A model generated the notes under the pieces. The model had not been told where the DNA came from, did not search any database, and worked only from the letters and a program-made list of their open reading frames with translations. The translations under genes were made by a program, and so were the position numbers. A stretch of 64,000 nt of DNA from NCBI RefSeq assembly GCF_000025545.1, contig NC_013889.1, forward strand, positions 2,287,501-2,351,500, in the 5' to 3' direction. Of the stretch, positions 11,797-62,890 are shown in pieces. How positions within the stretch are numbered: the first letter of the stretch is position 1; every line of letters starts with the position of its first letter. This DNA comes from Thioalkalivibrio sp. K90mix. GTDB lineage: Bacteria > Pseudomonadota > Gammaproteobacteria > Ectothiorhodospirales > Ectothiorhodospiraceae.

Positions 11797-13008
11797 ATGG
11801 CCGATTCCGGGACAATCTACGCTTGGGAAGGACTGAACAAGAACGGCGACCGGGTCAAGGGCGAAACCCCGGCCGACAGCGAAGCCGTCGCACGCTCCGA
11901 ACTGCGCAAGAACGGCATCAATGTCGTCAAGATTCGCAAGAAGCCAAAGTCGCTACTCTCCGGGGGCAAGAAAAAGATCGTCCCCGCGGACATCGCCTAC
12001 TTCCTGCGACAGATGACCACGATGCTGCAATCCGGCGTGCCGCTGGTACAGGCCTTCGAGATTGTCGGGCGCGGCAACGAGAAGCCGGCGATGCGCGATC
12101 TCGTGCTCAAGCTCAAGGCCGACGTCGAGGGCGGCGAGACCTTCGCCGCCGCGCTCGCCAAACAGCCCAAGTACTTCGACGACCTGGTGGTCAACCTGGT
12201 CGAGGCCGGCGAGCAGGCGGGGACGCTCGAGACCCTGCTCGACAAGGTCGCCACCTACAAGGAAAAGACCGAGGCCCTGAAGGCCAAGATCCGCAAGGCG
12301 ATGTTCTACCCGGCGGCGGTCGTCGTGGTGGCCATCGTGGTGACGGCCATCCTGCTGATCTACGTGGTCCCGCAGTTCGAATCCCTGTTCCAGGGCTTTG
12401 GCGCGGACCTGCCGGTCTTCACCCGCATGGTGGTCGACCTGTCGGGATTCGTGCAGTCCTGGTGGTGGCTGATCCTCGCGATCATGGTCGCGATCGGCTT
12501 CGCATTCGTAGAGACCCGGCGGCGTTCGCCACGATTTGCACGTTTCCTCGATATCGCGATCCTCAAGGCCCCGGCCTTTGGCCCGATCCTGCGCAAAGCC
12601 GCGATCGCCCGCTTCGCACGGACGCTGTCCACCATGTTCTCCGCCGGCGTCCCGCTGGTCGATGCCCTGACTTCGGTCTCCGGCGCCACGGGCAACGCGC
12701 TGTATCGCGAGGCCACGCTGCGCATGCGCGACGAGACCTCGGCCGGGGCCCAGCTGCAATGGTCGATGCGCAATACCGGCGTGTTCCCCAACATGGTCGT
12801 GCAGATGGTCGCGATCGGCGAGGAATCCGGCTCGCTGGACTCGATGCTGGCGAAGGTGGCGGACTTCTACGAGGCCGAGGTGGACAACGCCGTGGACAGC
12901 CTCTCGAGCCTGCTGGAACCCCTGATCATGGTCGTACTCGGCGTACTGGTCGGCGGCCTGGTGATCGCGATGTACCTGCCCATCTTCCAGATGGGTCAGG
13001 TCATCTAG
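11797..13008 (+). CDS. pilC: Type IV pilus inner-membrane platform protein PilC
   Basis: 403-aa polytopic protein that couples PilB to pilin assembly. Two T2SSF domains are visible (about residues 70-195 and 275-400), with membrane segments near 170-195, 222-245 and 375-400. Family motifs include FLRQMTTMLQSGVPLVQAFE and the repeated FARTLSTMFSAGVPLVDAL. The product ends PIFQMGQVI. Its TAG stop codon lies inside the CTAG duplicated by insertion of the element at 13009-13318, so before that insertion pilC and pilD were one base apart. Confidence 0.97.
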   Translation: MADSGTIYAWEGLNKNGDRVKGETPADSEAVARSELRKNGINVVKIRKKPKSLLSGGKKKIVPADIAYFLRQMTTMLQSGVPLVQAFEIVGRGNEKPAMRDLVLKLKADVEGGETFAAALAKQPKYFDDLVVNLVEAGEQAGTLETLLDKVATYKEKTEALKAKIRKAMFYPAAVVVVAIVVTAILLIYVVPQFESLFQGFGADLPVFTRMVVDLSGFVQSWWWLILAIMVAIGFAFVETRRRSPRFARFLDIAILKAPAFGPILRKAAIARFARTLSTMFSAGVPLVDALTSVSGATGNALYREATLRMRDETSAGAQLQWSMRNTGVFPNMVVQMVAIGEESGSLDSMLAKVADFYEAEVDNAVDSLSSLLEPLIMVVLGVLVGGLVIAMYLPIFQMGQVI

Positions 13009-13318
13009 GGAAACACTGACCAATGTACACACTCGCGTTGGTACCCCAGGTTTTCCGAGACAAGGCACGTCGCGCAGCGGGTAGTGGTTCTACCCGCCCG
13101 GTTTTGATGGATTCGGGGCGCAACGCAGGATCGGGGAACAGGGGTTACCAACCCCACAAGCGATTGAAAGCAGGGGCTCGGCCGCCCGTTGTTATCAAGA
13201 ACGGGCGCGCACACGGCGTTGCGGCTCCCTTGTGCAGAATGACTGCACGGCAGTCACCGCGCATTAAACGCACGCAAAAGCGACTCGAGCGCGAGCGTGC
13301 ACATTGGTCAGGGCTTCC
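13009..13318 (+). mobile_element. Non-autonomous inverted-repeat element, copy 1
   Basis: 310-bp element starting GGAAACACTGACCAATGTAC and ending with the near-inverted copy, giving terminal inverted repeats of about 30 bp with four mismatches. It is flanked by direct repeats CTAG (13005-13008 and 13319-13322), consistent with a 4-bp target duplication. Internal palindromes are GCGGGTAG/CTACCCGC (13077-13097) and TGACTGC/GCAGTCA (13240-13256). A homologous copy in opposite orientation lies at 62384-62647; a stretch of 50 bases (ACGGCGTTGC... to ...CACCGCGC) is identical in both. No transposase is encoded, so it looks like a MITE. Confidence 0.85.
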
Positions 13319-13323
13319 CTAGG

Positions 13324-14187
13324 ATGCTCGGCACGGAAGAGCTCCTGTCGCCACCCTGGGCAATCGCGGTCGCAGCGATTTTCGGGCTGCTAATCGGCAG
13401 TTTTCTGAACGTGGTCATCGCCCGGCTGCCGGTGATGCTGGAGCGCGGCTGGAATGCCGAGGCACGCGCGATCCTGGAGCAGGAGCCCCCAGCGGACGAC
13501 GTCCCGTTCGATCTGCTGCGTCCACGCTCGCGCTGCCCCCACTGCGAGCGACCGATCCGTGCGTACGAGAACATCCCCGTGCTCAGCTTCCTCTGGCTGC
13601 GCGGACGCTGCCCGGGCTGCGGCACAGCCATCAGCTGGCAGTACCCGCTGGTCGAGATCCTCACCGCAGTCCTGTTTGCCCTGACCATCTGGCACTTCGG
13701 ACCCGACACGACAGCGCTGCTGGCGCTGATCTTCACCGGCGTCCTGATCGCCGCCGCCGGGATCGACGCGCGCACCACCCTGCTCCCGGACCAGCTGACC
13801 CTGCCACTGCTCTGGCTGGGGCTGCTGGTCAATATCCCGGGCACCTTCACCGATCTGCAGTCGGCCGTGATCGGAGCGGCCGCCGGTTACCTGGTGCTGT
13901 GGCTGATCTTCCACGGCTTCCGCCTGGCCACCGGCAAGGAGGGCATGGGGTACGGCGACTTCAAGCTGCTCGCCGCGCTGGGCGCATGGCTCGGCTGGCA
14001 GGCCCTGCCGGTAATCCTGCTGCTGGCCTCGCTGGTCGGAGCGGTGGTCGGCATCCTGCTGATCCTGCTGCGCGGGCGCGACCGCAACATCCCGATCCCG
14101 TTCGGGCCGTATCTGGCAGCCGCCGGGTGGCTGGCGCTGATCTGGGGCGATACGCTGGTGGCGTTCTACTTCCCACAGGGGCTCTAG
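13324..14187 (+). CDS. pilD: Prepilin peptidase/N-methyltransferase PilD
   Basis: 287-aa membrane aspartic protease that cleaves and N-methylates type IV prepilins. The cytoplasmic zinc domain has CPHC (about residues 71-74) and CPGC (96-99). The catalytic aspartates lie in GIDARTT (about 147) and the GYGDFK motif (about 212), with several hydrophobic spans after residue 110. I chose ATG 13324; an in-frame GTG at 13297 lies within the mobile element. The upstream 300 bases are the inserted element, so the original coupling to pilC is lost and only a weak ribosome site (CCTAGG) precedes the start. Confidence 0.95.
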   Translation: MLGTEELLSPPWAIAVAAIFGLLIGSFLNVVIARLPVMLERGWNAEARAILEQEPPADDVPFDLLRPRSRCPHCERPIRAYENIPVLSFLWLRGRCPGCGTAISWQYPLVEILTAVLFALTIWHFGPDTTALLALIFTGVLIAAAGIDARTTLLPDQLTLPLLWLGLLVNIPGTFTDLQSAVIGAAAGYLVLWLIFHGFRLATGKEGMGYGDFKLLAALGAWLGWQALPVILLLASLVGAVVGILLILLRGRDRNIPIPFGPYLAAAGWLALIWGDTLVAFYFPQGL

Positions 14188-61997: not shown

Positions 61998-62288
61998 TTA
62001 GTCCTGGCGTGCCGCCCGGATGACCGCCTCGGGATCGTTTTCCACCACCTTGAGCAGTACGCGGGCCGGACCGCGCGGCGCGCGCAGCCCCTGCTCCCAG
62101 TGCCGCAGCGTGCCGATGGAAATACCGAAGGCGGCACAGAAACGCTGCTGACTCATGCCGGTCTTTTCGCGGATGGCCTTGACGTCCAGGGTCTCGGGAC
62201 GATGTTCGACAATACCCGAAGGGTCGCCACGAGCGTGGTCGATTGCATCCGCCAGCCCTTCCGCGATATCAGTGAATGCCTTGCCCAT
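61998..62288 (-). CDS. HigA2-like antitoxin with helix-turn-helix
   Basis: 96-aa antitoxin and autorepressor. The XRE-type helix-turn-helix is at about residues 37-65 (IREKTGMSQQRFCAAFGISI, GTLRHWEQGLRAPRGPARVL). The N-terminal part is the usual disordered toxin-binding arm. It follows the toxin gene and overlaps its original 3' end, the toxin-first order of HigBA2 systems. The gene is intact although the toxin is broken. Confidence 0.85.
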   Translation of the reverse strand: MGKAFTDIAEGLADAIDHARGDPSGIVEHRPETLDVKAIREKTGMSQQRFCAAFGISIGTLRHWEQGLRAPRGPARVLLKVVENDPEAVIRAARQD

Positions 62289-62890
62289 TACGCTGCCTCC
62301 AATAAGCGACCAGATCCCGCACTAGGCGGGCAATTGCTCGGCGCTCCTCGCCTGACAGGTCGGCTTTCTCGTTCTTGCCCCAGGGAAACACTGATCAATG
62401 TACACGCTCGCGCTCGAGTCGCTTTTGCGTGGGAACAAGGCGCGGTGACTGCCGTGCAGTCATTCTGCACAAGGGAGCCGCAACGCCGTTCCCGTGCAAA
62501 AGCGGCCGAGCCCTTGGGGTTGGTACCCCAGGTTCCCCGATCCTGCGTTGCGCCGCTTGCGGGTAGAACCACTACCCGCTGCACAACGCGCCTTGTCTCA
62601 GAAAACCTGGGGTACCAACGCGAGCGTGTACATTGATCAGTGTTTCCCTTGGCCGCCAGCAGATACAGCGGCATGGACTCGTTGTGGAAGTAGTAGATCA
62701 CGCGAATGCCACCGCTCTTGCCACGACCCAGAGCACGCCAGCGCAGCTTTCTTACCCCACCCGTGCCCTGGATGAGGTCACCCGCGCTCGGGTGCTCCGC
62801 CAGATAGGCAATCAGATCGGCACGCTCATCGTCCTTGAGCACTTCGATGATCTTCTTCCTGAACGGAGCGGTTTCCGCCACCGTGATCAT
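62269..62890 (-). pseudogene. HigB2/RelE-type toxin gene, broken by mobile element
   Basis: The first 80 codons (MITVAETAPFRKKIIEVLKD to YYFHNESMPLYLLAA) match the RelE/HigB2 toxin fold, including LIQGTGGVRKLRWR. The gene is then interrupted by the element at 62384-62647. Beyond it the frame resumes as WGKNEKADLSGEERRAIARL with 37 codons to a TGA at 62269, overlapping the antitoxin start. Removing the element and one 4-base flank rebuilds a 117-aa toxin. As it stands, translation runs through the element as an unrelated 200-aa fusion ending at 62288, lacking the toxin C-terminus, so the toxin is probably inactive. Confidence 0.9.
62384..62647 (-). mobile_element. Non-autonomous inverted-repeat element, copy 2
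   Basis: 264-bp element in the toxin gene, in opposite orientation to copy 1. The terminal inverted repeats, starting GGAAACACTGATCAATGTAC, are perfect over about 30 bp. A second nested inverted repeat of 16 bp, GTTGGTACCCCAGGTT/AACCTGGGGTACCAAC (62519-62534, 62604-62619), is intact here but decayed in copy 1. It also keeps the GCGGGTAG/CTACCCGC and TGACTGC/GCAGTCA hairpins. The 4-base flanks are CCAG and CTTG, not identical, so the target duplication is uncertain at this site. Confidence 0.88.

Follow-up and report, generated by a model that had tools for sequence, protein, structure and literature searches.

The window, a 64,000-nucleotide stretch of the genome of Thioalkalivibrio sp. K90mix (2,985,056 bp, two contigs), contained two copies of a short, strongly structured element (Table 1). 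Copy 1 occupied the space between a pilC-type gene and a pilD-type prepilin peptidase gene and was flanked on both sides by CTAG. Copy 2, in the opposite orientation, interrupted an open reading frame and was flanked by ccag and cttg, with no duplication. In the first 80 residues of the interrupted frame there is what we take to be a resemblance to RelE/HigB-type toxins; searches of this frame against Pfam and NCBIfam returned no match. The adjoining helix-turn-helix gene is a probable antitoxin gene of the toxin-like gene cut by copy 2. In genome G017 (L279), the two flanks of copy 2 adjoined each other at 68–71% DNA identity, and a single uninterrupted frame matched both sides of the element, with residues 16–95 and 96–132 of this homologue matching different frames of the window. 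The earlier note on this DNA had described two copies in opposite orientations with terminal inverted repeats of about 30 bp, a 50-base identical core, CTAG direct repeats at copy 1 and no transposase, and the description held throughout. The repeats were 29 bp long, imperfect in copy 1 and perfect in copy 2, the longest run common to both copies was exactly 50 bases, and either copy is too short for a transposase, with copy lengths in the family that break any reading frame.

Table 1. Coordinates of the element copies and associated features. Positions are those of the window, except where G000:C1 precedes them (G000 is K90mix).
Feature	Position	Strand	Remarks
pilC-type gene ending at copy 1 insertion site (context)	11797..13008	+	PF00482
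CTAG target duplication left of copy 1	13005..13008	.	includes pilC stop codon
Copy 1	13009..13318	+	310 bp; type I ends; three long-form hairpins; P2 right arm type II-like
Copy 1 left terminal repeat	13009..13037	+	
Copy 1 hairpin module A	13098..13116	+	long allele
Copy 1 hairpin module B loop	13156..13172	+	long allele
Copy 1 hairpin module C	13186..13204	+	long allele
Run identical in copies 1 and 2	13213..13262	+	50 bases
Copy 1 right terminal repeat	13290..13318	-	25/29 match to left
CTAG target duplication right of copy 1	13319..13322	.	
pilD-type prepilin peptidase gene starting just after copy 1 site (context)	13324..14187	+	PF06750, PF01478
Helix-turn-helix protein gene adjoining interrupted ORF (context)	61998..62288	-	
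ORF interrupted by copy 2	62288..62890	-	rest of homology beyond copy 2 in another frame
Copy 2	62384..62647	-	264 bp; type I ends; three short-form hairpins; inverted relative to copy 1
Copy 2 terminal repeat	62384..62412	.	perfect, 29/29
Copy 2 terminal repeat	62619..62647	.	perfect, 29/29
Shortened derivatives (five loci)	G000:C1:632118-632274, 949402-949498, 951043-951244, 235539-235741, 1945044-1945246		
Solo repeat at endonuclease III gene start (L292/L084)	G000:C1:1858435		NCBIfam
Solo repeat at prolyl aminopeptidase gene start (L074)	G000:C1:2723903		NCBIfam
Solo repeat at start of 412-aa frame (L070)	G000:C1:1944182		

Anatomy of the element and its variants

In the fold predicted for copy 2, a terminal stem opened into a junction from which two long arms and one small hairpin emerged. 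Three hairpins (A, B and C) each occurred as a short or a long allele differing by approximately 15 nt. Between fixed anchors, and with few exceptions, A measured 10 or 25 nt, B 5–6 or 19–21 nt, and C 15 or 30–31 nt; the short and long alleles at the three hairpins accounted for element sizes of 265, 280, 295 and 310 bp. Recorded copy lengths were 264, 265, 266, 280, 281, 295, 296 and 310 bp, and because lengths vary from 264 to 310 bp, a conserved reading frame was excluded. Seven of the eight possible allele combinations were present in 148 typed copies (19 of 167 were untypable), and all eight in the 174 typed copies of a set from four genomes (28 of 202 untypable). The long forms of A and C were linked in both sets (p = 6e-10 and 1.3e-8, with related copies not discounted) and looked related to each other in inverted orientation. 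An 8-nt complementarity between the A and C loops was conserved; the other five loop positions were not. The short C allele was the reverse complement of the facing arm. In-place inversion of the long C loop was seen twice among 53 loops of one set and once among 62 of the other (L103, L104); a further 18 C loops in each set could not be oriented.

A second type of terminal repeat, type II (GGAGACGCTGATTGAATCGC...), carried the same core and was likewise flanked by YTAR. In the four-genome set, 146 copies were type I and 56 type II, as typed by the left end, and copy 1 of the window joined a type I left arm with a type II-like right arm. Small alternative motifs were observed near the right terminal repeat (CCTTGTT/CATTAAA and GACTCGAG/GACGAAGCAG), and these also differed between copies at shared sites. 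A few copies had a different inner hairpin towards the right terminal repeat. The interpretation of the copies as a non-autonomous mobile element, already made in the earlier note, was borne out; that note had overlooked the two alleles of each hairpin, the existence of a second type of terminal repeat and the switching of cores in place.

Both window copies were more stable than their dinucleotide shuffles (z = -6.9 for copy 1 and -15.6 for copy 2), as expected because they are near-palindromes. The earlier expectation that any transcript through the element would fold strongly was correct as a property of the sequence; the tests at the RNA level lent it no specific support. A consensus computed with RNAalifold on 162 copies gave a poor structure, probably due to misaligned loop alleles. 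Tests of double changes and of G-U pairing used 162 distinct copies of 255–320 bp, from the set of 167, and the stem tests mapped the copy 2 fold onto their alignment, which favored this structure as it came from one of the tested sequences. A double change in three or more sequences was recorded for 18 of the 29 pairs of the terminal stem; the corresponding fractions were 6/21 for outer P2, 3/18 for inner P2, 1/2 for P3, 2/15 for outer P4 and 5/24 for inner P4. Some of these double changes arose because the end types differ, and template switching between arms could have produced compensatory changes in the stems. Departures to G-U were about as frequent as departures to A-C (217 vs. 191 cells, 40 vs. 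33 pairs, p = 0.48), and so nothing pointed to selection on one RNA strand. The loops of hairpins A and C did not co-vary beyond shuffled expectation (159 of 200 vs. 155.5, p = 0.14, n = 25), and an Rfam scan of positions 12800–13500, the region of copy 1, yielded nothing at E values up to 5.

Distribution, insertion target and candidate mobiliser

The terminal-repeat pattern, allowing up to three mismatches, matched the K90mix genome 48 + 51 = 99 times, a count far beyond chance, as the reversed pattern used for control matched 0 + 0 times. With a 32-base core pattern (up to three mismatches), 52 copies were detected in K90mix, 59 in G007 and 52 in G028, and the family was present in 16 of 30 genomes of the genus, control matches being zero in all 30. 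Among 47 genomes of the order, all belonging to one family, the core was matched in 16, every one of them Thioalkalivibrio, and in none of 17 sampled genomes of other genera. The exact 22-base terminal-repeat pattern, searched in a collection of 84,980 species, occurred in 92 stretches, all Thioalkalivibrio. Both ends were delimited for 62 copies in K90mix. What had been noticed as two copies is a high-copy, non-autonomous, MITE-like family of short elements with terminal repeats, target duplications, dispersed copies and empty sites and with no transposase of their own.

Shortened derivatives of 97–203 bp that kept both terminal repeats, and solo terminal repeats, were present as well (Table 1). 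Where a solo repeat lay at a gene start, its internal ATG probably serves as start codon, with the GGAAA-type stretch placed as a ribosome-binding site would be. When 36 solo repeats (19 of the 32 listed and 17 in K90mix, the other 13 lying mostly too near a locus end) were followed inward, a single partner was encountered, 71 bp away.

The 4-bp duplication of CTAG type that the earlier note had reported for copy 1 proved to be a property of the family. Among 43 terminal-repeat pairs in K90mix, 8 had an exact duplication (CTAG, TTAA, CTAA or CTTG), and many others had a YTAR-like flank. Of 167 distinct copies at the collected loci, a set that leans to type I because many loci were drawn from the exact type I pattern, 166 could be scored; an exact 4-bp duplication was present in 62 and absent in 104, copy 2 included, against a mean of 24.3 and a maximum of 36 in 2000 shuffles of partners. 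The pilC–pilD site of copy 1 was compared across 24 loci, with L241, L242, L244, L245, L247 and L250 excluded as other copies. It was filled, as CTAG...CTAG, in four species (G000, G007, G012 and G013), and the relative G028 had a single CTAG, a precise empty site. An insert of 322 bp in G014 was diverged, G015 and G029 also lacked the element, and the remaining 16 loci had no element and diverged spacers. A reading of the copies as remnants of a larger gene was ruled out, because their ends are precise, their targets are duplicated and an empty site exists. In some places MITEs, IS copies and terminal-repeat-like ends abutted with one CTAG in common (L185 near 1315; L292 near 1936), so that each insertion may make a new target for the next.

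A search of the K90mix genome with the DDE_Tnp_1 profile matched only three near-identical copies of a 1,200-bp IS, each with an exact 4-bp duplication (CTAG, CTAG and GTAG). Its transposase belonged to the IS5 family (NF033581, 319 bits vs. a cut-off of 140) and contained the domains PF01609 and PF05598. One end of the IS agreed with the MITE end at 16 of 17 outer bases (94%) and the other at 12 of 12 (100%), and one IS copy abutted a type II element with a CTAG common to both. Beyond the outer 12–17 bases nothing aligned between IS and MITE, including the 200–250-bp core, and descent of the MITE interior from the IS is thus not supported. Internal sequence derived from an IS is not required of every MITE. 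Where the terminal repeat was matched exactly (92 loci), no two adjacent repeats lay more than 330 bp apart, and among 40 matches to type II ends there was no IS-sized pair, except for two neighboring elements measuring about 1.4 kb together.

Relatives of the transposase were detected in 8 of the 30 genus genomes, all of them MITE-bearing, which corresponds to 8 of 16 MITE-bearing against 0 of 14 MITE-free genomes, uncorrected for kinship and completeness. Five of these genomes (G000, G005, G008, G010 and G015) had the protein at full or almost full length, and in three it was fragmentary or distant; the other eight MITE-bearing genomes had no match. Distant relatives, with 32% and 39% identity over part of the protein, were observed in the MITE-bearing genomes G029 (L194) and G009 (L195), respectively. 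Outside K90mix, the DDE_Tnp_1 search covered 10 of the 16 MITE-bearing genomes and gave no match in 8 and weak or partial matches in 2. The IS can explain the MITE family, yet half of the MITE-bearing genomes now show no IS copy; current mobility in genomes with no transposase match is doubtful, and draft assemblies may hide IS copies. The earlier suggestion of mobilisation in trans by an IS5-type transposase appears well supported by inference from a co-resident IS5-family element, its matching ends and the 4-bp duplications.

Cores and ends at shared sites

Elements were delimited in four species (62 in G000, 56 in G007, 37 in G012 and 47 in G013, 202 in all) and grouped by their flanks. Both flanks were required to meet at the junction, and 9 of 104 pairs were dropped as offset or ragged. 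This strict grouping gave 36 shared sites with 97 members. Its counts supersede the higher ones obtained when similar flanks sufficed (40 sites, switching at 25 of 34 and a reversed copy at 8). A hairpin allele differed at 23 of the 32 strict sites with at least two fully typed copies (A at 14 of 33, B at 10 of 32 and C at 14 of 32), and in alignments of copies that otherwise hardly differed, such as L099 and L183, one loop cleanly replaced another. In 75 same-orientation pairs from shared sites, identity was 94.4% in the flanks, 97.3% in the terminal repeats and 94.5% in the core, compared with 88.0% in the terminal repeats and 91.0% in the core of 297 non-orthologous type I pairs; in 15 of the 75 the core was less alike than in the average unrelated pair. 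The best terminal-repeat match, determined for 86 copies, was the ortholog in 54, a tie in 25 and a non-ortholog in 7. For the core of 86 copies, with the hairpin modules removed, the corresponding numbers were 33, 11 and 42.

At 5 of the 36 shared sites, the interior of a copy was reversed relative to its flanks. Nine typed pairs from four inverted sites had core identities of 85–99% when flipped vs. 58–68% unflipped. The cores differ in place between species, and from these differences we infer exchange or rewriting of the core. Within-genome donors were not supported, as the best non-orthologous core match lay in the same genome in 48 of 174 cases vs. 44.0 expected with the modules out; with the modules in, the count was 61. 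Close core matches between non-orthologs could also result simply from the large number of near-consensus copies, although the terminal repeats are exposed to the same pool.

Separate insertions into the same YTAR hot spot, or excision followed by re-insertion, might also leave different hairpins at one site. The shortness and specificity of the target would favor this, as would the IS and MITE copies that adjoin with one CTAG in common and the offset junctions encountered among the seemingly shared pairs. We nevertheless consider such repeated insertion improbable: copies that differed in hairpins had private terminal-repeat variants in common (L063/L150 and the pilC–pilD set), 30 of 44 same-orientation switched pairs matched at no fewer than 57 of 58 terminal positions, and mean terminal identity was 97.1% in switched pairs, 97.6% in unswitched pairs and 88.0% in unrelated ones. 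Several switched pairs, moreover, differed by little beyond a clean loop replacement. Replication errors at the palindrome, including loop deletion, quasipalindrome correction and loop inversion, could instead generate the alleles within each copy with no donor involved, an account that we regard as possible, if doubtful. The short C allele as a copy of the facing arm's complement, the occasional inverted C loop, the lack of enrichment for same-genome donors and the compensatory stem changes, which template switching can also cause, would all fit it; a change from short to long, however, requires a template, the same few long alleles recurred at many sites, and the interior away from the loops often did not track the site, with a non-ortholog as best match in 42 of 86 copies.

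The strong folds, the double changes in stems and the complementary A and C loops with their co-occurring long forms would agree with an element that is a functional, conserved RNA or regulatory structure and only incidentally mobile. Against this stand the about equal departures to G-U and A-C, the absence of A–C loop co-variation in excess of shuffles and the lack of an Rfam match, and many copies in each species had no same-site partner found in the other three; we hold a functional structure of this kind to be very unlikely. That some different transposase, and not that of the K90mix IS5 element, moves the family seems rather unlikely to us. This would accommodate the absence of the IS from half of the MITE-bearing genomes, the existence of two terminal-repeat types and the presence of only distant transposase relatives in G009 and G029, but the IS matches the family in target, in length of duplication and in outer repeats, the three IS copies were the only matches in K90mix within DDE_Tnp_1, the one family searched, and no IS-sized pair of type II ends occurred in that genome.

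In our judgment, formed from sequence comparison, the MITE is probably moved in trans by an IS5-family transposase, and its core is probably rewritten in place between ends inherited with the site. An IS5-family DDE transposase, that of the K90mix element or of a close relative, would recognize the outer 12–17 bp (GGARACRCTGAT...) and insert the element at YTAR with duplication of 4 bp. After insertion, the terminal repeats would be inherited with the site, and the palindromic core, with its junction fold and three two-allele hairpins, would be rewritten and sometimes inverted at a fixed position. This would probably come about through ectopic recombination or through template switching, among dispersed copies and also between the arms of the palindrome, with the donors presumptive. 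A bolder possibility, which we think unlikely, is that the core is a selected, exchangeable cassette of folded DNA or RNA, in which the long A and C hairpins touch through a complementary 8-nt loop–loop contact; a dedicated or strongly favored exchange process would move this cassette from copy to copy, across end types and in either orientation, and spare ends and site.

Relation to known repeat families

Among the papers listed on Thioalkalivibrio repeats and mobile elements, on gene conversion in MITEs and on IS5/CTAG MITEs, there was no description of this family, and the accessible sections of the K90mix genome paper mention transposases and no such repeat (PMC3368412). The family is a new IS5-type MITE family. 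With it, the soda-lake sulfur bacteria gain a mobile family for which there is a candidate mobiliser. More important, the dozens of sites shared by sibling species form a natural data set in which loop replacement, inversion and possible exchange between dispersed copies can be followed against fixed terminal repeats; how fast short palindromic repeats in bacteria undergo such exchange, and within what limits, would become measurable.

A YTAR target is the rule for the IS5 subgroup. The Thioalkalivibrio MITE is like IS5-family IS and their MITE derivatives in this target, in the 4-bp duplication and in terminal repeats beginning GGAAAC, and differs from them in that only its outer 12–17 bp, and not its structured core, have a counterpart in the K90mix IS. 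BOX and EFAR repeats consist of modules in variable combinations. The Thioalkalivibrio element is also modular, but it varies by alternative loops at fixed positions and not by module number. K90mix also carries GTAG-type REPs, described in the portion of the source available as palindromes of 20–40 bp (PMC3733652). The MITE occurs in the same genome and is palindromic as well; at about 265–310 bp, with terminal repeats and 4-bp duplications, it is distinct from these. REPs and REPINs are recognized as palindromes of 20–40 bp with GTAG or CGTC tags, and our copies, at 264–310 bp with GGAAAC ends and 4-bp duplications, fell outside this definition.

The element also resembled structured bacterial MITEs such as QMITE2, ERIC and NEMIS, for which the available parts of the sources describe terminal repeats of 15–30 bp, no transposase, strong stem-loops and a frequent position beside genes (PMC10969869, PMC3733652). 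As far as those descriptions extend, the Thioalkalivibrio MITE has the same short terminal repeats, stem-loops, lack of a transposase and frequent placement beside genes, and it differs in its three hairpins with discrete alleles, in two end types on one core, and in that alleles are switched and cores inverted where species share an insertion. To our knowledge, it is unusual for a core to be rewritten and inverted in this way while the ends at a shared site stay fixed.
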